This document shows positions 4,924 through 35,094 of a stretch of 64,000 nucleotides of DNA, piece after piece; within the stretch, counting starts at the first letter, position 1; each line of letters opens with the position of its first letter. The stretch spans positions 62,001 to 126,000 of the forward strand of contig SZXV01000010.1 of NCBI GenBank assembly GCA_005862225.1. Direction: 5' to 3'. The DNA is from Chlorobium sp. Lineage in GTDB: Bacteria > Bacteroidota > Chlorobiia > Chlorobiales > Chlorobiaceae. Under the pieces are notes generated by a model, which saw only the letters and a list, made by a program, of their open reading frames with translations, searched no databases and had not been told where the DNA came from. The translations under genes were made by a program, and so were the position numbers.

Positions 4924-5080
4924 TGAAATAACCTGTTTTCAGTTTGAGAAATAGATCAACTGACAGGGGTAAGCAAAAGGCATAGGTAACGACATGAGCA
5001 TCAACAAGGTAATGCAAAAAGAGGTACAGCTTTGCCCCGACTATATCCCGTAGTCCGATTGTATTCATGCAAAAATAACT

Positions 5081-5300
5081 GGCAGGTCTCCTGACTATCA
5101 CGGCTTGGTTCCGTTTCGGCCTTCCCGCAGTTTTCCAGAGGCGGAAAACATTGCAGTGACCTGAAACGACCAGCAAAATCAATGCATTATGGCAATGCGA
5201 AGCTTTTCTGGTATACCGTTGTACAGTTGCGGGTACAGTGTACGATTCTCACGTACTTCCCTATTCTCCGGCTTTTAAGCCGGCACCAGCTACGACGAAA
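5081..5300 (-). promoter_or_regulatory. cobalamin (B12) riboswitch
   Basis: On the minus strand: GGTGCCGGC..., GCCGGAGAATAGGGAAG, CCCGCAACTGTA, and the 3' conserved GTCAGGAGACCTGCC; located upstream of the TonB receptor and divergent from nudix/btuF. Confidence 0.88.
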
Positions 5301-5485
5301 GAACAATTATCGAGCCTTAAATACCAAATAATTTTCTGAAATCCAACAGCAAGCTCCCCATCATTCCCGGAAAAAATTATGCCAATCCTGAAATCAGTTT
5401 AACCAGGCTTCAAGAGATATCATCTTTTTTTACCATCTTTGCGGGTAAAGCAAAAAATGCGGTTAACAACCATATCATCCGTCCT

Positions 5486-18110: not shown

Positions 18111-18418
18111 CAACAAAGATGTCGCGTTTTTTTAAAAAAATCAATCTTTTTTATCCGGGTTCAGAACGACTTCCCGGAGAACTTTCCAATGTTTGACTGG
18201 TCGTGAACCCCAGCGTTCAGGATGTGTAGCCTGAGCATGTCTCATTGTTCTGTTTCTCTGTTCAAAAATTGCTTCTGCCTGACCAGAGCGCATCTGTTCC
18301 GGTGTTACGTAACCAAGAGATGAATGCAAATGTTCAGTATTGTACCAATGGACAAATGCGGCCATCCATAATCTTGCTTCGTTCAGGTCTTCGAATCGTC
18401 CAGGATAATTAACCCGGG
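18111..18418 (-). mobile_element. IS3-family remnant (C-terminus of OrfB transposase)
   Basis: RVNYPGRFEDLNEARLWMAAFVHWYNTEHLHSSLGYVTPEQMRSGQAEAIFEQRN typical of IS3 OrfB; cut at the junction with ATPase fragment near 18418. Confidence 0.85.
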
Positions 18419-18920
18419 AGTGGACTTCACCAGAAACGCTGGAAGCGGGAGCGATGTCAGGAGCCATTCTTGAAAGCTGGGTAGTATCGGAGATCATCAA
18501 AAGCTGGTGGCACAACGGCAAGCGAGCCCCCATTTTCTACTATCGCGACAAGGATGCCAAAGAGATTGATCTGCTCATTCATCAGAACGGCACACTCTAT
18601 CCGGTAGAAATAAAAAAATCGGCAAGTCCGGGAAAAGAGGCCATTCACCATTTCGAGGTACTTTAAACCCTGAAACAACCGATCGGCCAAGGAGGCATCA
18701 TCTCGCTTGCCCCCATGTATCTCCCGATCACATCAACCATCGATAACGTACCAGTGGGAATGGTGTAAACCCGGGTTCAGGAATACAGTGCATGATCCCG
18801 GGTTGAACCGACTCAGCATTATGCCTGTCAGTTTGGCAAGTTTGTTTCTCTGAAGCGGATCTCCGAAGTCAATAAATCACGTCATAGAGACTGCTTTCGA
18901 TAGCGGCTATCTGTAATTTT
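18419..18920 (+). pseudogene. 3' part of the DUF4143 ATPase unit (C-terminus plus trailer)
   Basis: Matches 22256-22755: EAGAMSGAILESWVVSEIIKSWWHNGKRAPIFYYRDKDAKEIDLLIHQNGTLYPVEIKKSASPGKEA plus trailer ending CTATCTGTAATT. Confidence 0.88.
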
Positions 18921-19278
18921 CACGACACTGATGGAGTGCGTTGTCAGATGAGTGGGCTTGTCTCCATCCTTTGGGAACGGCTTTGCCAACGTAGATAGGA
19001 TAGCTATATGAATGGCGGTTTAGCTCGTCAGATCGTTTGTACAGAGGATTACTCCCTGTGTAATAGAGTGCGTACACCCCTGTTCCTTGAAATGATTCTG
19101 GCGGAGGGAGCGTGTGAACAGGTGTGCCATTAAAGAATCTGACCGCATCTTTGACCAGTTCGGCAAAGGCATCGTTTCTATAGTCGTAGGGTATGGGTTC
19201 ACAAAGTTTTGCACGATAATGGAGCGCCTCAACTCCAAAATTACTGCTCGCTTTGCAATCTCGAACCTCGCCGAAGCT
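18907..19278 (-). pseudogene. N-terminal part of an Eco29kI-like GIY-YIG restriction endonuclease (truncated at about 18918)
   Basis: Minus-strand frame reads ...EALHYRAKLCEPIPYDYRNDAFAELVKDAVRFFNGTPVHTLPPPESFQGTGVYALYYTGSNPLYKRSDELNRHSYSYPIYVGKAVPKGWRQA...; GIY-like GVYALYYTG and YVGKAVPKG; no ATG in frame. Confidence 0.75.
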
Positions 19279-19293
19279 TCATAGGGAAAATCA

Positions 19294-19593
19294 TCAGCGC
19301 CTGATTTGGTCCTCTTTTGCTGCTCCATCCACCAGTGTTCCGTTAATGAACTTGTGAATAATACTTGAGATATAACTCTGATACGGCAACCCTTCCTTGA
19401 CGGCCTTTCTTTGCAACTCAGTGAGGTCTCTTTCAGAAATCCGAATATTCAGCCTCCTGTCCTTTCTCAAAGTATTACAGGCATACTCCGTCAATTCTTT
19501 TCTTCTTTTTGGAAGGTCGGCGACAGGAACCCATTCACCTTTTTCAAAGCTATCCAGTATTTCCTTCTCTTCTTTGGTCAGTTTAGCCGTCAT
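19294..19593 (-). CDS. BrnA-like antitoxin
   Basis: RRLNIRISERDLTELQRKAVKEGLPYQSYISSIIHKF; overlaps the BrnT-like toxin gene. Confidence 0.78.
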   Translation of the reverse strand: MTAKLTKEEKEILDSFEKGEWVPVADLPKRRKELTEYACNTLRKDRRLNIRISERDLTELQRKAVKEGLPYQSYISSIIHKFINGTLVDGAAKEDQIRR

Positions 19594-19867
19594 GTTTTTC
19601 TCCAAAATATTGCTGAGTGGCCTTCCTGCTCGGGATAATGGTTTTCAGAAACAACTCTTCCTCATTCTCAACATAAGGTACAAGATATGCGTAATTGGTC
19701 ACGCTCAGTACCATGATTCGTTGTCCAAGGTATACCTTCTGGTTGGGATGAAGATAATCGTCCAATATCTCACCCCTTTCAATAAAGAAAACCACATCCT
19801 CGAAACAGATTCCCCGTGACGCTTTGAGTGCCACGCTCTTTTCCGTGCTCCAATTGATGCGTTTCAT
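19583..19867 (-). CDS. BrnT-like toxin
   Basis: INWSTEKSVALKASRGICFEDVVFFIERGEILDDYLHPNQKVYLGQRIMVLSVTNYAYLVPYVEN...LKTIIPSRKATQQY; DUF497-like architecture. Confidence 0.78.
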   Translation of the reverse strand: MKRINWSTEKSVALKASRGICFEDVVFFIERGEILDDYLHPNQKVYLGQRIMVLSVTNYAYLVPYVENEEELFLKTIIPSRKATQQYFGEKHDG

Positions 19868-19927: not shown

Positions 19928-19989
19928 GGTCTAACGCCTAAATAACCCGCAAAACCGAAGGTTTTGACAGGTTGATCTATATGTTAGCT
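19928..19989 (-). repeat. attC-like integron recombination site
   Basis: Minus strand: AGCTAACATATAGATCAACCTGTCAAAACCTTCGGTTTTGCGGGTTATTTAGGCGTTAGACC; terminal TAAC...GTTAGAC (GTTRRRY) and inner inverted repeat AACCTGTCAAAACC/GGTTTTGCGGGTT; about 27 nt after the stop at 20017. Confidence 0.75.
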
Positions 19990-20016: not shown

Positions 20017-20679
20017 TCAGAACTCATTAGCTTGCTTTGAGTTTTCGAGATACTGCAACTCTTTGCTGTAGTATTCTACAATGTGACCAATATCGAAGTC
20101 CTTCCCGGAAAGAGATAAATAGATTTCAGTTGTATTCGTTTCCCATGAAGTTACGAAGGTAACATTTCCAGAACTGATCTGCTGTCCCCAATGGGTTGGT
20201 TCTTTCTTCCAAATGCTGTTATCATCTTTCCAGACTTGCTTAGAACTACTACTCTTGCCATATTTGCCTTCAAGAATTGTCTTAGCATTGTTGTAGTCAT
20301 CAATATAGTCGTTATAGTTAGTATGTCGCGACTGAAAAATATACCTACCTCGAACGAGACGATCGTCAACATAGTAGTAGGCGACAAAGCAGTCGATGCC
20401 AGCAACTTTGGTTTGGAATGCTATGACATTATCCTTATCATAATCTGGCTTCTTCCCTTCGGAGGAAATAGCTGCCGCTCTTGGTGTACCCCAAAGCACG
20501 TTTCTAAAATCCGAAGAATTTGCTGACTTGTCCTGAACGACCTTCCATGTTCCATTGTCGTAAAGAACAGCTACTCGCCCGTCGTAAAGTATAATCTTTT
20601 CGTCTCCAATCGCTGTCGCTGTCGACACAACGAGAAACAAGAAAAAGAGCGATAGATGAATACTGCTTTGAATCCTCAT
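20017..20679 (-). CDS. hypothetical exported protein
   Basis: Signal peptide SLFFLFLVVSTATAIGDEK; coding-like composition; directly followed by an attC-like site. Confidence 0.7.
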   Translation of the reverse strand: MRIQSSIHLSLFFLFLVVSTATAIGDEKIILYDGRVAVLYDNGTWKVVQDKSANSSDFRNVLWGTPRAAAISSEGKKPDYDKDNVIAFQTKVAGIDCFVAYYYVDDRLVRGRYIFQSRHTNYNDYIDDYNNAKTILEGKYGKSSSSKQVWKDDNSIWKKEPTHWGQQISSGNVTFVTSWETNTTEIYLSLSGKDFDIGHIVEYYSKELQYLENSKQANEF

Positions 20680-20746: not shown

Positions 20747-21090
20747 TAACAATAATTAGATGGATCCGCCTATACTGCGGATTTTTGAGTTAAAGTACAT
20801 ATAAGACGTCATTTTCAAACCAAAAAAATAGTTCTAACCGTTTTTTTATAAATAAGTTAAATCTTTTATTGCTTTTTATTTCAGCGTTTTATATGGATCG
20901 GCATAAAAACGATACTTACAAGCCGTCAACAGGCCTTTTTACTCCATAACCACCTTTTTTATAACTTGCGTGTAAATTATTGTAGCACTTATATCTTTAT
21001 ACTCCAAAAATCAGATCGTCTTTACTAAACTGTGTTCATGGACTCCATCCTGGAAGGAAAAAAATATAACGATAGCAAAGATGAGCCTCT
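20747..21090. repeat. dispersed repeat, copy 1 (about 345 bp)
   Basis: TAACAATAATTAGATGGATCCGCCTATACTGC...GATAGCAAAGATGAGCCTCT matches 27555-27901 with scattered substitutions. Confidence 0.88.
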
Positions 21091-21096
21091 CATAGT

Positions 21097-21345
21097 TCAC
21101 TCACCTATCGCCTCACTCAACCTCTCGCGGACAAAATGGCTGAGACGGGCTATGCCGAGGTTTCGGGCCAGTTCAACCTGGTCGCCATTGGTTGCAAGCA
21201 GTTTGTCTATGGCACCGAGGATCCCCAAGGCACTGACCTCTTCCTGGAAGATGGATTCGACCATGTGCATGACGCGCCGAACCTTTTCCCCACCTGCATC
21301 ACTCTCAGAGGTACTATCTTTTTTACCTGTTGCACTCTTTCATTT
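21097..21345 (-). pseudogene. C-terminal relic of an unidentified protein
   Basis: Minus-strand frame ...SATGKKDSTSESDAGGEKVRRVMHMVESIFQEEVSALGILGAIDKLLATNGDQVELARNLGIARLSHFVRERLSEAIGE*; no start in the window segment, abuts the ATPase unit. Confidence 0.5.
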
Positions 21346-21386
21346 TTTCGGCTATTTTTATACTCTATAATAAAATTAGCCGAATC

Positions 21387-22607
21387 ATGCCATACAAGAC
21401 CAGAACACTTGAGATCTTTTTCCTGCAAGCGAGTCAACAATTCCCCGTCATGCTGCTGACCGGACCTCGCCAAACCGGAAAAACAACATTCCTTCGCCAC
21501 CTGGCAGGAGAAGAGCGGTCGTATGCCTCTCTTGACGACCCGATGCTCCGGGCACTCGCCAGGGAAGAACCCGCGCTTTTCCTGCAACGCTTTACCTCAC
21601 CGGTTCTCATCGACGAAATCCAGTACGCACCCCAGCTTCTGCCCTACATCAAAATGGCGGTCGACAACGAACAGCAAGCCGGAAAATTCTGGCTCACCGG
21701 CTCACAGCAATTCCATTTGATGAAAGGGGTCAGTGAATCGCTCGCTGGTCGTGTCGGGGTGGTCAACCTGCTTGGATTCTCGCAGAGAGAGCTTTTTGAC
21801 ACTCCTTCTGCAGAGCCGTTTCTGCCGATTCCAGAAATCATGAAACAACGTGCAGAAAGCCGGCAATTGCTTCTGCCGGAACTCTACCGGAAAATCTGGC
21901 TTGGATCGTTTCCCGCTCTTCATCAGGAGAATCCTGCCGATCATGACCTGTTCTACAGTTCATACGTCCAGACCTATCTGCAACGTGATGTGCGGGATCT
22001 GGCCAATGTCGGCGACGAAAGTGCATTCCTGAGTTTTCTCCGCTCCTGTGCAGCACGAACCGGCCAGATGCTCAATATCCTGGATCTTTGCCGCAACAGC
22101 GACATCAACCATGCGACCGGAAAACGATGGCTCTCGATTCTTGAAAATTCAGGCATCGTCTACCTGCTCGAACCATGGCACACCAATATCAACAAAAGAG
22201 TGGTGAAAACCCCGAAACTGTACTTCCTCGATACGGGACTTGCAGCCTGGCTGACCGAGTGGACATCACCCGAAACGCTGGAAGCGGGAGCGATGTCAGG
22301 AGCCATTCTTGAAAGCTGGGTGGTATCGGAGATCATCAAAAGCTGGTGGCACAACGGCAAACGAGCCCCCATTTATTACTATCGCGACAAGGATGCAAAA
22401 GAGATTGATCTGCTCATTCATCAGAACGGCACACTCTATCCGGTAGAAATAAAAAAATCGGCAAGTCCGGGAAAAGAGGCCACTGGCCATTTCGAGGTGC
22501 TTCAAACCCTGAAACAACCGATCGGGCAGGGGTGCGTCATCTCGCTTGCCCCCATGTATCTCCCGATCACATCTACCATCAATAACGTACCAGTGGGAAT
22601 GGTGTAA
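21387..22607 (+). CDS. AAA ATPase with DUF4143 domain (intact copy)
   Basis: LLTGPRQTGKTTFLRHLAGEERSYASLDDP Walker A; SPVLIDEIQYAPQLLPYIK; C-terminal DUF4143 SWVVSEIIKSWWHNGKRAPIYYYRDKDAKEIDLLI. Confidence 0.92.
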   Translation: MPYKTRTLEIFFLQASQQFPVMLLTGPRQTGKTTFLRHLAGEERSYASLDDPMLRALAREEPALFLQRFTSPVLIDEIQYAPQLLPYIKMAVDNEQQAGKFWLTGSQQFHLMKGVSESLAGRVGVVNLLGFSQRELFDTPSAEPFLPIPEIMKQRAESRQLLLPELYRKIWLGSFPALHQENPADHDLFYSSYVQTYLQRDVRDLANVGDESAFLSFLRSCAARTGQMLNILDLCRNSDINHATGKRWLSILENSGIVYLLEPWHTNINKRVVKTPKLYFLDTGLAAWLTEWTSPETLEAGAMSGAILESWVVSEIIKSWWHNGKRAPIYYYRDKDAKEIDLLIHQNGTLYPVEIKKSASPGKEATGHFEVLQTLKQPIGQGCVISLAPMYLPITSTINNVPVGMV

Positions 22608-22759: not shown

Positions 22760-23971
22760 TTATCGGCCAATTGCAAAATTCTGCTCGTCTGATTGTCGAG
22801 GATGATGCGTCCCGTCCATGTTGACTTCCGGGTTAGGCGTTTTAAGTTGCTTCGCCAATGTAAAGCCTATTTTTTCTGCCAGTAATACAGGAACGGCGTT
22901 TCCAATTTGACGCATAGCCTCACCCCAGGCACCTTTGATGACGAAATCATCAGGGAACGTTTGAATTCGTTTTGCTTCAAAGGTTGTCAGGTATCGAACG
23001 CGGCCATCATTGAAACGGATCATGTTTTCCCCTCCTGGCACTCCGTGTCCGCCTGCTTTGATTGTTTTTGACGGCCAATCAAAATCACTACCTGTATGCC
23101 CTTGGTAGGCACGCGCACCATCCCGAAAGATGTGGTCGATTATTCCATGATCTGATTTTGGGTCTGGCGTATCACATAATGCATCCCGCATGGTTTGCCA
23201 GGGCAATAATTCTGGTTCAAACATTCCGTACTTGTCTCTTAGTCGAGATATTCTCTCTCTCAGAGATGCATCTACATCAGGTTGCAAGAGTTTCGGTACT
23301 CTATGGCGCGACCAGTATTCGCCCGTTACGTACATGTCCCAGAGAAGCCTCTCTTCTGAGTGTGTTTCAACAGGGAATGACCAGGGCAATGAGATGTCTG
23401 CTCTTGTTCCAACAATTACAACCCGCTCTCGTGTTTGTGGCACGCCATAATCTGCGGCATTTATCAGTTTGAACTGCACATTGTACTTTTTCCCTGTATA
23501 GTAAAGTCTACCAATATTGCGTAGTTCATCGAGGTGCCTTTTCCAGTTGGAGTCATTGCCCGAAATAAAATCCGGGTAACGTAATCTGAGAATTATGTAT
23601 TCAAAATACTCGGAAAAAGTTGGGCGAAGCAGGCCTTTAACATTTTCAAATATAAATGCTTTTGGAGCAAGTTTTTCGATTGCGCGTATGGCATACGGAA
23701 ACATATCCCGGTTGTCCAGGTCGGCTTTGTGCTTGCCGCCCAGTGAAAATGGCTGGCACGGCGGGCCTCCTGCAACAATATCAATATTCGCAAGGCTGTT
23801 TAAATCAAAATCTTTTATGTCACCAAAGAAGACTCGCGCAGGATCAAAATTCTCAGAAAGCGACTCACACGCATGCCGATTAAACTCAACAAAGGCGGTG
23901 TGCTCAAATCCGGACAACTCCAGGCCCTTTGCCAGACCGCCTGCACCTGAAAAAATTTCAAGAGTCTTCAT
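22760..23971 (-). CDS. C5-cytosine DNA methyltransferase (probable partner of an Eco29kI-like REase)
   Basis: EIFSGAGGLAKGLELSGF, GGPPCQPFSLGGK, FENVKGL, C-terminal RYLTTFEAKRIQTFPDDF...IGNAVP. Confidence 0.93.
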   Translation of the reverse strand: MKTLEIFSGAGGLAKGLELSGFEHTAFVEFNRHACESLSENFDPARVFFGDIKDFDLNSLANIDIVAGGPPCQPFSLGGKHKADLDNRDMFPYAIRAIEKLAPKAFIFENVKGLLRPTFSEYFEYIILRLRYPDFISGNDSNWKRHLDELRNIGRLYYTGKKYNVQFKLINAADYGVPQTRERVVIVGTRADISLPWSFPVETHSEERLLWDMYVTGEYWSRHRVPKLLQPDVDASLRERISRLRDKYGMFEPELLPWQTMRDALCDTPDPKSDHGIIDHIFRDGARAYQGHTGSDFDWPSKTIKAGGHGVPGGENMIRFNDGRVRYLTTFEAKRIQTFPDDFVIKGAWGEAMRQIGNAVPVLLAEKIGFTLAKQLKTPNPEVNMDGTHHPRQSDEQNFAIGR

Positions 23972-24155
23972 TGCGATGGCCCCAACTTCTCAAGGTGAAG
24001 GCGAATATTTGTAATTATTGTGTTTTTCTCGGCATGTTTCCCATTGCATTTATTCGCCCAAGTCCGGCCTTCATGAATAACATCCCAATCTGATTTAGCT
24101 TGTTCGTATCGCCCTCTTCCAGGGTCGTGATTGCCAAATCCATCACAATGTATTG
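23968..24155 (-). pseudogene. C-terminal part of an Eco29kI-like restriction endonuclease, overlapping the methyltransferase start (ATGA)
   Basis: PIHCDGFGNHDPGRGRYEQAKSDWDVIHEGRTWANKCNGKHAEKNTIITNIRLHLEKLGPSQ*; resembles the end of Eco29kI-family REases (DGFGNHDPG..R....WD..H.GR.WA). Confidence 0.7.
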
Positions 24156-24157
24156 GA

Positions 24158-24664
24158 TTACTTCTTCGGCAACTCAGGTAGGCTATCAAGTTTTAAAAGC
24201 TGGTTTCTGCCACAATACATTGCAATTATAAAAAACAAAAAAACAGCCACAAACCAGAGCCACTCATAATAAAGAACGATTCCTCTCGTTTTCCATAGTA
24301 GGGCAATGGCTGCAACAAAGGAAAGTATAGTAAAGCCACGTGATCCCATAACGAAGAAGCGATCTCTATTTTGGCTAACAAAGGACTCATAATCTTGTTC
24401 AGTTTTATCACTACTGGGATGAAGGCGGAGAAAAGCACCAACACGACGTATTGAGAAATGCTCACCCATTACGAGAAAGTCTAGAAATACAGCTACAAGA
24501 GGGGCAAAGTACAATGTTTGGTAGAATGCCGTAATATCATTGATCTTGATAGCACCGAAACCTAAGAGGGCTGATACGAAGGTAATTTTTAGAACATCAA
24601 GCCTGTTTCGACGATGCTGGGTTTCACTAATTTCCTTGTAAAGCCTATTGAAGGTTGGATTCAT
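24158..24664 (-). CDS. hypothetical multi-pass membrane protein
   Basis: Several TM segments (ITFVSALLGFGAI, TLYFAPLVAVFLDFLVM, FTILSFVAAIALLW, WLWFVAVFLFFIIAMYC); AAAGGAGAAG RBS right after an attC-like site. Confidence 0.75.
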   Translation of the reverse strand: MNPTFNRLYKEISETQHRRNRLDVLKITFVSALLGFGAIKINDITAFYQTLYFAPLVAVFLDFLVMGEHFSIRRVGAFLRLHPSSDKTEQDYESFVSQNRDRFFVMGSRGFTILSFVAAIALLWKTRGIVLYYEWLWFVAVFLFFIIAMYCGRNQLLKLDSLPELPKK

Positions 24665-24679
24665 TTTCTTCTCCTTTAT

Positions 24680-24750
24680 GCCAACGCCGCGCTCTGCGGC
24701 AAATTTGGAGCGCAGCGGAAAATTTGTCCGACAGAAGCGCCTTGTTAGGT
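24680..24750 (-). repeat. attC-like integron recombination site
   Basis: Minus strand: ACCTAACAAGGCGCTTCTGTCGGACAAATTTTCCGCTGCGCTCCAAATTTGCCGCAGAGCGCGGCGTTGGC; arm GCGCTTCTGTCGGACAAATTT pairs with AAATTTGCCGCAGAGCGC leaving single unpaired bases; ACCTAAC...GTTGGC ends. Confidence 0.88.
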
Positions 24751-24753
24751 GCT

Positions 24754-25590
24754 TTAAATACCATTTCTCGCTGACTTAATATCAAGAAGATTAATTTTAT
24801 CAATCTTGCTCTTGTGGATGACAATCGTTAGCTTCGCCGGGTACTTGAACCGCATTTCACTAATGCGGAATGTCCACAACATTATTTTCAAAAGATCTTC
24901 ATCACTTATAGTTTTATGCCCTTGAATTCGTGTAATCCCAGAACCAAAAATCGGCGTAGTTACGCTCTGCTGACCATACACATTGTTGACCTTGTCCCAA
25001 AAATTAATTAGAAATTCAAGGTACTCAGGAATAGTGAGCACTGCTTTATTGTTATTATCGAACTTCGAAAAAGCGGCCAAAAGAAAATCTTTATATACGC
25101 AAATAGAGCCGATCTGATACCGCCACTTTTTACCCACGACTCGCTCGGCGTTGCTCCCAAGTTTTTCACTTTCATCGAAGGGATAGTTATCGATATGGCT
25201 ATCAAGTTCTGAAACTTGATCACCACAATGATGTTTTATAAAAATTCCGTTCAGTGAATTTTCAGAAATTATTTTGTTATCTACGATTGTGTCAAAGTAC
25301 TCATTGAAAGCAATGGCCTTTAAGCCGGGTTCGGAAAAAATGTCGCCTACTTTTATCGTGACCTCACTTCCTTCAATATTGATATCAATTTTATTGAGAT
25401 TGTTAGACCAAATCCAAATTGCCAAATAAATCAACGCCAACAGCCCAATAAATATCCATCCATAGGTGCTTTTGCAATTTGTTGGAATATCGACAAACAA
25501 TACAACTAAAGAAAGAGTCGCGCTTATGGCTGAGGTAATCTTGAGAAAGTTCTCAATCACCCTCCTGTCAATGAAACTAACCTTTGTCAT
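24754..25590 (-). CDS. TM-macro domain protein (type II Thoeris ThsA-like)
   Basis: Two N-terminal TM helices (ITSAISATLSLVVLFVDIP, WIFIGLLALIYLAIWIW) followed by a macro-like domain (ITVKVGDIFSEP-type: VTIKVGDIFSEPGLKAIAFNEYFDTIVDNKIISENSLNGIFI); 4-bp overlap with the TIR gene. Confidence 0.75.
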   Translation of the reverse strand: MTKVSFIDRRVIENFLKITSAISATLSLVVLFVDIPTNCKSTYGWIFIGLLALIYLAIWIWSNNLNKIDINIEGSEVTIKVGDIFSEPGLKAIAFNEYFDTIVDNKIISENSLNGIFIKHHCGDQVSELDSHIDNYPFDESEKLGSNAERVVGKKWRYQIGSICVYKDFLLAAFSKFDNNNKAVLTIPEYLEFLINFWDKVNNVYGQQSVTTPIFGSGITRIQGHKTISDEDLLKIMLWTFRISEMRFKYPAKLTIVIHKSKIDKINLLDIKSARNGI

Positions 25591-26150
25591 ATTTTGTACC
25601 AGTAATAATCTGGACTCGTTTTGGTGGCAACCATAAAATCGCTGTCTTTGAGCGCTGCCTCAATGATGTCCTTCTTGTTGGGGATGTGAAGTGACGGAAC
25701 CTTACTCATTGAATCTCTAAAAATAGGTAAGTTACCCCACAGATTCTTTACAGACTGTCTCAGTGAACCATTAATCAGCAGGCTGGCCTTAGAGTCATAC
25801 TCTGGATATACAACAATAACAGGCAGTCCTTGATTATTTATTCCGTAGTCAATTTCTTCACGTAGAGCTCTTGAGCTTACTGTGCTGGAGCTAAGAAAAA
25901 GTACAACATTTTTAGAACTCCTAAGACGCTCTTGAAGTCTTGGCTTTAGTGTTTTTTCCCAATCGCTGCCGTCACGGACGTTGTATGTCTTATCATGCGA
26001 ATCATTAAATGGAAATGATGCTTCTTTTCCTTTCCATGCCCGCAACATGTTGTAATAGCAGAAATCTTTTGTTGCATTTGCGCCGAGAGCGCTTGCGTTG
26101 AAAGGTTCTGCAACATAAAAGGCTGCGTAATTGCCGTTTTTATATACCAT
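25587..26150 (-). CDS. TIR-like (MTH538/DUF1863-type) domain protein (Thoeris ThsB-like)
   Basis: AAFYVAEPFNASALGANATKDFCYYNMLRAWKGKEASFPFNDSHDKTYNVRDGSDWEKTLKPRLQERLRSSKNVVLFLSSSTVSSRALREEIDYGINNQGLPVIVVYPE. Confidence 0.82.
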   Translation of the reverse strand: MVYKNGNYAAFYVAEPFNASALGANATKDFCYYNMLRAWKGKEASFPFNDSHDKTYNVRDGSDWEKTLKPRLQERLRSSKNVVLFLSSSTVSSRALREEIDYGINNQGLPVIVVYPEYDSKASLLINGSLRQSVKNLWGNLPIFRDSMSKVPSLHIPNKKDIIEAALKDSDFMVATKTSPDYYWYKI

Positions 26151-26194
26151 TTTTTTCTCCAAATTTTAATTTTCCAGTAGCCAAGCTTGGCCCC

Positions 26195-26360
26195 TAACAA
26201 TAATTAGATGGATCAGCCAATACCGCAGATTTTTTAATTCTAACCCATATAAGCCGCAAATTCAAAATCATATAAAACGCTGTTAATTTCCTTATTCTCA
26301 GCAATTTATACCATAATCACTTTTTATTTGAGCGTCTTATATTGATCAGCATAAGACCGC
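26195..26360. repeat. dispersed repeat, diverged partial copy
   Basis: TAACAATAATTAGATGGATCAGCC...CTTATATTGATCAGCATAA, similar to 20747-20915 and 27555-27720. Confidence 0.7.
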
Positions 26361-26722
26361 TGCTAAAACCCCATAGTTCCAGAAGTTCCTACCACCAGCT
26401 CGAGCATCGGGAAATATACGTCATATTCAGCAAAATTATATCCTCAGAATCAACCAGTATTGTTGCTGACAGCCTGATGCAGTTCATCTTCATCGGCTAT
26501 GGCATCCTGCACCAGATCATCAACGAAACCGATGGAGCCCATTATGAGTTGGAAGTCTTTACTATGAGAGTAAGATCGATAATAAATTCACCGAGGTGAA
26601 ATGTGGATGCTCAGGAAAATGTCAACAAGTTTTTCAAACGTTTCCTCGTAAGGCGTTGAGTAAAGAGAGTAGGCGAACGTCGCTTTTGCAATTTGAGAGA
26701 ATACCGAATGTCAAAGCTGTTT

Positions 26723-27523
26723 CTATTGCACAGCCTCATAGCGGATTCCGAGTGCAAATGTGTTTCGGCCGTTACAGCTTGGACATATCCAACTCTTCCC
26801 GACTTCCAGCTCATGGAGCCAAACGACTATTTTGTGAGTACAATCACCATTCGCGCACTCAACTTCATATTGTTGCGGTTGCCATTCGACATTGTTATTC
26901 CCTTTGTCGACAATGAGGTATGAAGCATGGCACTCGTAGCATTCGACCTCCACTATTTCTTGCCCGTAGGGTATGCGCTTACGAACTGGTTTCCTGCATT
27001 CCACACACTCCATCGTCGCAAAACTACCCAATGTAACATTGAAGACTGGGGATACAAGAACTGCTCTGACAAACGCTGCAATTTCCTCACAACGGAATCG
27101 TATCTTGCCAAAGTCCAGCGACTTTCCTGCTCTGACCTGTTTCATCGACTGGACATGGAGATAGTTGCCTAAGGCGTCATAATGTTTCCGCAAGGTGGCC
27201 ATATTGAGAACTTTCTCTGAACCCAAAGACCTCATCACCTGGGCCGGAACGCCGTACTCTTCTTCTTCGCCAAATGCGAAGGAGCTATCCTTGTCGGCTG
27301 TGGGATCTATATCCAGAAGCACCGTCATCACCTTGCGCGGTTGCCAAGTCTCGTATTCTGCTGGTGGAAATTCGTCCTTGTACGCAAGGGCACGGTCGTA
27401 AGTAAGTGCCTCCATTGACATCCGGAGTTCAAGGGCGGCGTATTTCAACCGTTCATCATCGCCGTTCCCAAGCTCTTCTTCGTACCGTTTAAGACATTTT
27501 CGCGCGTAATTGCGATAATTCAT
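26723..27523 (-). CDS. hypothetical protein with several C-terminal CxxC pairs (zinc-ribbon-like)
   Basis: Full-length ORF; CVECRKPVRKRIPYGQEIVEVECYECHASYLI and CANGDCTHKIVVWLHELEVGKSWICPSCNGRNTF. Confidence 0.8.
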   Translation of the reverse strand: MNYRNYARKCLKRYEEELGNGDDERLKYAALELRMSMEALTYDRALAYKDEFPPAEYETWQPRKVMTVLLDIDPTADKDSSFAFGEEEEYGVPAQVMRSLGSEKVLNMATLRKHYDALGNYLHVQSMKQVRAGKSLDFGKIRFRCEEIAAFVRAVLVSPVFNVTLGSFATMECVECRKPVRKRIPYGQEIVEVECYECHASYLIVDKGNNNVEWQPQQYEVECANGDCTHKIVVWLHELEVGKSWICPSCNGRNTFALGIRYEAVQ

Positions 27524-27554: not shown

Positions 27555-27901
27555 TAACAATAATTAGATGGATCCGCCTATACTGCAGATTTTTGAGTTG
27601 CCGTACATATATGACGTCATTTTCAAACCAAAAAAAAATAGCTTTAACCTTTTTTTTATAAATAAATTAACCCTTTTATTGCTTTTTATTTCAGCATCTT
27701 ATACGGATCGGCATAAAATACGATGTTTACAAGCCGTCAGCAGGCCTTTTTACTCCATGACCACTCTTTTTATAACCTGCGTATAAGCCATTGTAGCACT
27801 TATATCATTATGCTCCAAAAATCAGATCGTCGTTACTAAACAGTGCTCATAGACTCCATCCCGATAGGGAAAAAACAGGGCGATGGCAAAGATGAGCCTC
27901 T
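27555..27901. repeat. dispersed repeat, copy 2 (about 345 bp)
   Basis: Matches 20747-21090. Confidence 0.88.
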
Positions 27902-32528: not shown

Positions 32529-32885
32529 ATCAATTTGCAAAGCTTGTTCAAAAACCACCTTATGGGCAGCGCTATCACTCCCGGAATGCGCAAACAACCC
32601 TGATACAACGGGTTACAGGAAAATGTCTGAAGAGCGGTATGAACCTGCAAGGAAAGGCATACATACCATCATCATTCCCGGTTCTCTTGTCCGGGATGGA
32701 ATTGGCACCGATCATCGTGCAATGACGGTTGCCAAGGCTTCTCAGGGCCAGTCCCTCCACCTTTCTGGATGATAGCTTGAAATCTTTAATAGAACATTTA
32801 GTCTGATTAATCTACAACAGGGATTAGTATTTTACAAACAGCCTGAAGAAACGAAGGTACTTTAAATGATATTTAATTATTTCCC

Positions 32886-34196
32886 ATGACCACCGCACGA
32901 GAACTGGCTTTGAATGTTTTGCAGTCACTTGAAACCGGAAAACAGCGATCTGACCAGATTCTGCACCGCACGCTGCAACATTGTGAACTGAACCGCGTTG
33001 ATCGGGCGCTTTCAACAGGATTGGTTAACGGAGTTTTGCGTTACCGTCTTCAGATAGATTTTATTATCGGGCGCTTCTATCATCACAATTTTGAAAAGGC
33101 GGCTTCTGTCCTGAAGAACATTCTTCGCCTCGGTGTCTATCAGATTCTTTTCCTCAACAAGGTGCCAGACTGGGCGGCCGTGAACGAATGCGTGAAACTG
33201 GCCAGAAAGTACAAGGGTGAACGTCTGTCGAAATTAGTCAACGGGGTGTTGAGAAAAATTACGCCTGAGAGCGTCACACTTGACGAGTGGCTGAAGAATA
33301 AAACCATTGAGGAACAGCTTTCAATACAATACTCACACCCGCAATGGCTGGTTGAACGCTGGATCGAGGCTTTCGGAAGAGAAAAAACAGAATCTATCCT
33401 TTCCTATAACAATCAGTTCCCGCTGTTTGGATTCAGAATAAACCGCCTGAAAACGTCGGAAGAGAAGCTGTTTGCTGATCCGGCACTTGCGGTTGCGCAT
33501 GAACCGTGCAGTGTGGATCCGTTCTTTCTTTCAAAAGATTTTAACTCTTTTGAACCGGCCGTGACTGATGGTCGTCTTACTGTTCAGAACCCGACACAGG
33601 GACTTGCCTGCCTGCTGCTTAATCCCGCTCCCGGCATGACGGTGGTTGACTTGTGCGCAGCACCTGGAGGCAAGGCTACCTTTATAGGGGAGTTGATGCA
33701 AAACCGTGGCCGGATTATCGCTGTCGACCGTTATGAAAAAAAACTTTCAAGAATAGAGGCTCATGCTGAGGCGCTCGGTATTACCATCATAAAAACTGTT
33801 GCGGAAGATGCACGGAGTTTTGTGCCTGAATTCCGCCCCGATGCCATCCTGCTTGATGCTCCCTGTTCGGGTACCGGGGTTCTTGGCCGACGCGCAGAAT
33901 TACGCTGGAAACTAAGCCCTGAAATGCTTCTGGAGCTCCGAACGCTGCAAGCCGAACTCCTTGATCATGCTGCGGAGCTGCTGGATGAAGGGGGAAAGCT
34001 TATCTATGCCACCTGTTCAATTGAAGCCGAAGAAAATAACCTGCTGATTGAGGCATTTCTTCAGAGACATTCTGATTTTATTGCGGGCCCCGAAGGCGCT
34101 CTGCTCACGCTGCCGGGTGAGCAGCCGGGTTTTGACGGCGGGTTCTGCCAGAGGTTGCTTAAACAGGGCAAAGAGAGAGATGGAGAGTCTGGATAA
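32886..34196 (+). CDS. rsmB: 16S rRNA (cytosine-967-C5)-methyltransferase RsmB
   Basis: NusB-like N-terminus, VDLCAAPGGKATFIGELMQNRGRI, DAPCSGTGVLGRRAELRWK, LIYATCSIEAEEN. Confidence 0.94.
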   Translation: MTTARELALNVLQSLETGKQRSDQILHRTLQHCELNRVDRALSTGLVNGVLRYRLQIDFIIGRFYHHNFEKAASVLKNILRLGVYQILFLNKVPDWAAVNECVKLARKYKGERLSKLVNGVLRKITPESVTLDEWLKNKTIEEQLSIQYSHPQWLVERWIEAFGREKTESILSYNNQFPLFGFRINRLKTSEEKLFADPALAVAHEPCSVDPFFLSKDFNSFEPAVTDGRLTVQNPTQGLACLLLNPAPGMTVVDLCAAPGGKATFIGELMQNRGRIIAVDRYEKKLSRIEAHAEALGITIIKTVAEDARSFVPEFRPDAILLDAPCSGTGVLGRRAELRWKLSPEMLLELRTLQAELLDHAAELLDEGGKLIYATCSIEAEENNLLIEAFLQRHSDFIAGPEGALLTLPGEQPGFDGGFCQRLLKQGKERDGESG

Positions 34197-35094
34197 TCAC
34201 TTCAAAAGAGTGCTGGAAAGTTTCCTGAACTATATGCTTGTCGAACGCAACTTTTCGGGAAATACCAGGGATTCATATAACAACGATCTCAGTCGCTATC
34301 TGCTTTTCATGCATCGCCATTCGAGACCGATTGAGGCTATTACGACCGCCCATATCAATGAATTCATCACTGAACTTTACTCCATCGGCCTTGAGGCAAG
34401 TTCAATGGCTCGAAATATTTCTGCAATCCGTTCGTTTCATAAATTCCTTGTGATCGAACGAACACTCGACAACAACCCGGCTGAGAGTCTCCGGCAACCC
34501 AAGCAGGCAAAATACCTCCCGAACGTCCTCACCATTGACGAAACCATGCGACTGCTTGATGCGCCAATGACTCTCGTGCCTCCCGGAAAATATCTGCTGC
34601 GAGACAAGGCGATGCTTGAACTCCTCTACGCAACAGGGGTCAGAGTCAGTGAACTCATTACTATCCAGCAGCAGAGTCTCTATCTCGATGCTGGATTTAT
34701 AAGAATTTTCGGGAAAGGATCGAAGGAGAGGCTTGTGCCGGTTGGAAGCTCAGCCATTGAATGGGTGAAGCGATACCAGAGTGGACTTCGAGTCACTCTG
34801 GTTAAGCACAATTCCGATGATTACCTGTTTCTCAATGCTCGCGGAATAAAACTGTCGCGCATGGCACTTTTTACCATGATTCAAAAATATGCTGCGATGG
34901 CAGGAATAGAAAAACATATCAGCCCGCACACCTTCCGCCATACTTTTGCCACCCATCTGCTCGAAGGCGGAGCCGATCTTCGCGCAGTCCAGGAGATGCT
35001 TGGCCACAGCTCAATTGTCACCACCCAAATCTACACGCACATCGACCGCTCATTTATCAAGGAGGTGCATAAAACCTTTCATCCAAGAGGATAA
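34180..35094 (+). CDS. xerD: site-specific tyrosine recombinase XerD
   Basis: SAM-like N-terminus; ATGVRVSEL, HTFRHTFATHLLEGGADLRAVQEMLGHSSIVTTQIYTHID. Confidence 0.92.
   Translation: MESLDNHFKRVLESFLNYMLVERNFSGNTRDSYNNDLSRYLLFMHRHSRPIEAITTAHINEFITELYSIGLEASSMARNISAIRSFHKFLVIERTLDNNPAESLRQPKQAKYLPNVLTIDETMRLLDAPMTLVPPGKYLLRDKAMLELLYATGVRVSELITIQQQSLYLDAGFIRIFGKGSKERLVPVGSSAIEWVKRYQSGLRVTLVKHNSDDYLFLNARGIKLSRMALFTMIQKYAAMAGIEKHISPHTFRHTFATHLLEGGADLRAVQEMLGHSSIVTTQIYTHIDRSFIKEVHKTFHPRG

Follow-up and report, generated by a model that had tools for sequence, protein, structure and literature searches.

Clusters of attC sites without a functional integrase are termed CALIN in IntegronFinder, by a definition that needs attC sites only. 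The locus studied here, in a stretch of 64,000 nucleotides of Chlorobium DNA (the window), resembles a CALIN in its attC arrays without functional integrase, but attI-like sites and an intI remnant persist. Reverse chromosomal integrons have been described in Treponema denticola, Chlorobium phaeobacteroides and Blastopirellula marina; in these, as here, intI is transcribed toward attI and the cassettes, and attC stands behind the cassette genes (PMC3607928, PMC6557892). The host of the C. phaeobacteroides integron belongs to the same bacterial group as the present one. Unlike in these integrons, the attI-like sites are here multiplied and apart from intI, of which only a fragment is left. The delta-attI sites of class 1/2 integrons are, like the sites here, attI fragments ending in GTTRRRY away from intI, but they replace the attC downstream of a gene, whereas here long attI-like copies stand upstream of cassettes at scattered loci (PMC12901181). 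In the TM-macro type of Thoeris, ThsB produces ADP-ribose-type nucleotides, whose binding causes the macro domain of ThsA to oligomerise (PMC11204291). The pair found here is built in the same way, with a TIR ThsB and a ThsA carrying N-terminal TM helices and a macro domain, close to PDB 8v6s and 9uv0, except that both genes lie in one integron cassette. Defence genes as integron cassettes, as here, have been reported by Getz 2025 (doi 10.1038/s41564-025-01927-7) and Darracq 2025 (doi 10.1126/science.ads0768); as presented in PMC12926258 and PMC13064858, these studies concern Vibrio or sedentary integrons generally, whereas the present case is a TM-macro Thoeris in a green sulfur bacterium. 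Defence cassettes are already known, as are reverse integrons in Chlorobium, and the dispersed attI-like sites decoupled from intI are the less expected part.

We conclude that the hairpin behind thsA is very probably the attC of a Thoeris cassette, which IntI inserted at an attI-like site of a reverse-type integron before being truncated. The features that compose this locus are, in window coordinates:

24679..24750, minus strand: attC site of the Thoeris cassette, R'' ACCTAAC ... R' GTTGGCA (covariance model, fold, compensatory pairs)
24685..26197, minus strand: complete integron gene cassette from G^TT to G^TT, 1,513 bp (alignments to two hosts)
25587..26150, minus strand: thsB, TIR domain protein, 187 aa from ATG (PF08937 2.2e-27, PADLOC ThsB1 1.6e-76)
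24754..25590, minus strand: thsA, 278 aa, TM and macro domain (PF20016 6e-65, PADLOC ThsA1 2.8e-124)
26195..26356, minus strand: attI-like site loaded with the Thoeris cassette, ending ...TCTAATTATTG^TTA
26357..26677, minus strand: upstream part of the solo attI-like platform, resembling by eye a deleted intI 3' end

The TIR/macro pair recognised upstream of the attC in the preliminary description proved to be Thoeris ThsB/ThsA of the TM-macro type from its Pfam, PADLOC and PDB matches. The ORF listed for thsB begins at TTG (26162). ThsB matched PDB 9uv0 (3.5e-79) and also PDB 3hyn; ThsA matched PDB 8v6s (1.3e-102), with two N-terminal TM helices predicted from hydropathy, followed by the macro domain. 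The pair is predicted to be expressed and to defend its host against phage. Among plasmid records, only distant relatives of thsBA were found, the best-covering ones with an identity of about 67% across no more than 71% of the query, and in the literature searched, which covered few subscription journals, a Thoeris pair reported as an integron cassette was not found. The earlier attribution of the DNA to a green sulfur bacterium fits, since the genome encodes the FMO bacteriochlorophyll-a protein (472 bits). The FMO gene (G000:C9:61185-62236) matches in two overlapping frames, which suggests a frameshift or an assembly error.

The minus-strand sequence first quoted as attC-like was found at 24680-24750, and the full site including both R boxes covers 24679-24750. 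It begins 3 nt past the thsA stop codon (24754-24756), and the next ATG (24664) comes after a gap of 14 nt. The R'' box ACCTAAC matches RYYYAAC fully and the R' box GTTGGCA matches the GTTRR of GTTRRRY, the last two positions deviating; the AAC and GTT of the R boxes are invariant in the four homologous attC sites. The minimum-energy DNA fold of the exact 72-nt site exhibited the attC shape, with the R'' and R' boxes base-paired, spacers left single-stranded, an L stem of 18 bp and a loop, and the single unpaired bases already seen on one arm are extrahelical T, T and A on one side of the L stem. Two properties were counted against the attC reading: R'' and R' pair at five of seven positions, with the outer two unpaired, and the L arm carries three extrahelical bases compared to the usual two. 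Unpaired outer positions can arise when R' derives from neighbouring DNA. Together with a few flanking bases, the stretch adopted a different minimum-energy fold of ordinary stability (z -1.4); because the flanked attC is not unusually stable, fold energy, which alone proves nothing, was not relied on. The attC sequence occurs once in its genome, so the REP/MITE nature named beforehand as a refutation was rejected, and the cassette-end comparison and the covariance-model match speak against it as well.

An attC covariance model of our own was built from 12 sites of Methylococcaceae, Paraperlucidibaca, Pseudidiomarina and two relatives of this genome. None of the training sites comes from the Thoeris cassette or from the window's genome. 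The check with an attC covariance model, suggested at the outset, gave 31.7 bits for the Thoeris attC (E 2e-5, the E-values of this model being only roughly calibrated), and with default filters this was the sole match below E=5 in the 64 kb window. With the filters off over 10-30 kb, a second attC appeared at 19929-19989 (26.9 bits, E 8.8e-5). A regex/pairing motif scan also placed the Thoeris attC first with a score of 20.0, but a shuffled window reached 19.3; for this reason the motif scan was replaced by the covariance model, and only this model and the comparative evidence carry weight. A gapped consensus pattern search returned zero matches. Of 473 attC candidates from the whole genome, 150 received a score, and the Thoeris attC is not among the matches listed. 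From both filter settings and follow-up scans, the genome holds at least 13 attC sites; 10 of 13 lie at most 8 kb downstream of a same-strand attI-like copy, a count in which sites within one array are not independent.

The same cassette is present in Desulforhopalus singaporensis (L016) with 92.7% DNA identity, the alignment running from 26197 to 24683 and then stopping, and in Pseudidiomarina (L022) with 71% identity, aligned from 26198 to 24683. Position 26197 is the TT of GTTAGGGG and 24683 the TT of GCGTT. These end points are the positions where IntI cuts (G^TT). Seen against these two other hosts, the cassette is bounded by G^TT at both ends, and the claim that the attC belongs to a gene cassette is borne out by the limits of homology, which coincide with the predicted G^TT points. 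Most of the stem sequence is changed in the Pseudidiomarina attC with the pairing kept. In the same way, nine stem pairs are changed on both sides across the four cassette homologues with pairing kept, and 97% of stem cells and 90% of all cells are paired, compared to at most 44% over the whole structure in slid-alignment controls. As the four sequences amount in effect to two pairs, these compensatory pairs are supportive and not conclusive. Covariance-model attC matches were obtained behind thsA in L017, L018, L019 and L022, and attC sites stand behind thsA in Methylococcaceae, Gallionellaceae and Paraperlucidibaca contigs; homologous sites behind thsA were also found in L016 and L021, and in a cyanobacterial contig (L054), thsA is followed by an attC at a distance of about 180 bases. 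ThsA relatives are present in many genomes and most have no attC behind the gene, so that Thoeris is only sometimes a cassette. Both the attC call and the cassette structure are strongly supported by these sequence comparisons.

Four other genomes have platforms that are 80-87% identical to the one upstream of thsB, with a common G^TT end and unrelated sequence beyond. In relatives with intact intI, the element spans the intI 3' end and the sequence behind it, up to the GTT that starts the first cassette gene. Because it lies directly 3' of intact intI in these relatives, the element is taken as the attI, or its 3' part, of a reverse integron, and the copy upstream of thsB probably functions as an attI. 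In this genome, one attI-like copy follows the intI remnant and the copy before thsB does not. Among the matches listed, the genome has eight attI-like matches, seven of which end at the core; the eighth (C4:43623-43655) consists of 33 bases and stops short of it. In an alignment of 40 copies, conservation stands at about 1.9 bits per base immediately ahead of the core and drops across it to 0.6 and then, a few bases on, to about 0.1-0.2; GTTR, i.e. a purine opening the next segment, is found in 37 of them. These 40 copies were drawn from 47, six without core-pattern match (most with a changed core) and one too short being left out, so the conservation figures describe intact-core copies. Six related platforms of other genomes and that of the window have their upstream sequence in common, in most pairs up to the core, and share almost nothing downstream; since the more distant upstream flanks are also dissimilar, a single orthologous locus does not simply account for the platforms. 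That the repeated element of 82-350 bp might itself be a long attC was discarded, as it has no R'' box at its start and follows intI in relatives. A second sequence family (GGAATACTCAAAATCCCTGCGTACATT...) is repeated immediately upstream of the attI-like copies of several genomes (L179, L182, L189, L195 and L205).

In agreement with the preliminary description, no IntI was found in the window; the tyrosine recombinase at 34048-35094 scores as XerD, far below the IntI cut-off, and was rejected as the integrase. The search for intI over the full genome, also proposed there, returned no intact IntI in the 2.5 Mb assembly, only a C-terminal fragment. This fragment, an 87-aa ORF on contig C10, is identical from FHAQLIKRATC to its end to the intact integrases of relatives and is followed by an attI-like element. 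The intact intI genes of relatives scored 455-482 bits with TIGR02249 (cut-off 265), and their products carry an extra ...PNAPAEWRWQWVFPQ... segment between the catalytic motifs, which XerD lacks. Such an extra segment tells IntI from XerC/D. An intact intI beside attI, as in a complete integron, is not present in this assembly. The earlier alternative of an integrase-less attC cluster thus holds in that no integrase stands beside it, but the locus is not made of attC only, with three attI-like copies in the window. The sequences indicate that IntI is lost or decayed, rather than never present. A 497-aa tyrosine recombinase with an N-terminal extension (G000:C11:38965-39780, L005) scored below the IntI cut-off, and similar proteins occur in several relatives. 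Behind the attI-like copy by the intI remnant, a 275-aa protein (G000:C10:2451-3275, L236) has a weak TIR/deoxyribosyltransferase-like match and is possibly a defence effector.

Further cassettes and attI-like copies surround the Thoeris cassette in the window:

27555..27901, minus strand: second attI-like copy with decayed intI 3' end, 88% identical to the 20747 copy and with the same 3' end
26723..27523, minus strand: ORF of 266 aa without family match, directly after the second attI-like copy
24158..24664, minus strand: membrane-protein ORF of 168 aa directly after the Thoeris attC, with hydrophobic segments in its translation
22813..24145, minus strand: Eco29kI-type restriction-modification cassette remnant, with REase 3' end, DNA methylase and half attC
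20747..21090, minus strand: third attI-like copy with decayed intI 3' end, then ORF 20017-20679
20017..20679, minus strand: cassette gene of 220 aa without family match, after the third attI-like copy
19929..19989, minus strand: second attC in the window, 27 nt past the stop of the 220-aa gene

The covariance-model scan found no attC behind the ORF at 26723-27523, and the membrane-protein ORF at 24158-24664 lacks an attC of its own. In the Eco29kI-type remnant, whose DNA methylase is at 22760-23971, only the first half of the attC is left (22838 onward). In Gallionellaceae L018, the Eco29kI-type cassette still stands behind the thsBA-attC with an attC of its own, and the remnant in the window matches it with 86.7% DNA identity. 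Contig C4 carries an array of several cassettes with many defence-type genes. Behind its attI-like copy come genes most of which have an attC at or near their stop, in the order 8xMP-like membrane protein, two unknowns and an Mrr-type nuclease without detected attC; farther along, there are a protein of 275 aa and an AlbA_2 protein that is weakly similar to a type I specificity subunit. Directly behind the second attC of the window, two small ORFs (19294-19867, minus strand), one with a weak CopG antitoxin match and the other BrnT-like by eye, are possibly a toxin-antitoxin cassette. The N-terminal part of an Eco29kI-type restriction endonuclease, interrupted by stops, lies at 18900-19240 (minus strand); repeats come next, and then an ORF with a transposase core (rve_3) at 18141-18533. 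An AAA_14/DUF4143 gene, the PADLOC candidate PDC-S01, is located at 21330-22607 on the plus strand, and fragments of it are duplicated at 14.5-15 kb and 18.4-18.9 kb, inside the cassette region. The window also contains a cobalamin riboswitch (5064-5305, minus strand) and a SAM riboswitch (32666-32775, minus strand), both above Rfam gathering scores.

The element upstream of thsB might instead be a dispersed repeat, a MITE-like or promoter module that ends at GTT by chance, with the cassette at a secondary site. A module of about 165 bp without intI does occur at many loci, its copies being 70-88% alike, and solo platforms of about 0.33-0.5 kb stand in unrelated flanks in different species; however, the position directly behind intact intI in relatives, and the fact that nearly all copies end at the G^TT core with different sequence downstream, unlike an insertion by its own ends, make such a repeat very unlikely. 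It could also be asked whether the hairpin is the intrinsic terminator of a thsBA operon and its likeness to attC incidental, given its long stem only 3 nt past the stop codon. No T run follows it, the covariance-model match is specific, a further attC stands behind the 220-aa gene, and homology to the other hosts stops inside the R' box at the cleavage point, which largely refutes the terminator and leaves it hardly credible.

An intact intI may, on the other hand, have been lost in an assembly gap, the integron then being complete and active. The assembly has 13 contigs, attI-like repeats often break assemblies, and contigs of several relatives end close behind intI or attI. Against this stand the listed completeness of 99.96% and the place of the intI remnant, which adjoins a serB-like gene inside contig C10, away from the contig end. 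An intI hidden in a gap is possible but less likely, and we consider a complete and active integron in this genome unlikely.

For a Thoeris cassette loaded at a reverse-type integron, an attC, the cassette ends, an attI-like element 3' of the relatives' intI and no intact intI here are apparent from the compared sequences, and we infer that IntI carried out the insertion. The circular cassette would have brought one attC, which IntI would have joined, folded as a single-stranded hairpin, to attI at its G^TT core, giving the order attI - thsB - thsA - attC that is found here. IntI would later have been cut down to its C-terminal fragment in this genome, and the remaining attI-like sites, each with different genes behind, would be a mostly immobile remnant. 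ThsB would sense phage and make a nucleotide from NAD+, clustering the TM-macro ThsA in the membrane.

A complete antiphage system that moves between phyla as a single integron cassette, with ends that can be identified, is thereby seen outside Vibrio and clinical integrons. The scattered solo attI platforms might, more tentatively, form a distributed integron in which one intermittently present IntI loads all of them in trans, a possibility we hold doubtful. A solo platform shared by several genomes with different genes behind is compatible with loading in trans, and also with parallel loss of intI after loading or with other rearrangements. This natural set of attI-like sites unlinked from an integrase makes the loading of a remote attI by IntI in trans testable, and if the integron is distributed, lineages that lose IntI would keep their loaded sites as fixed gene islands.
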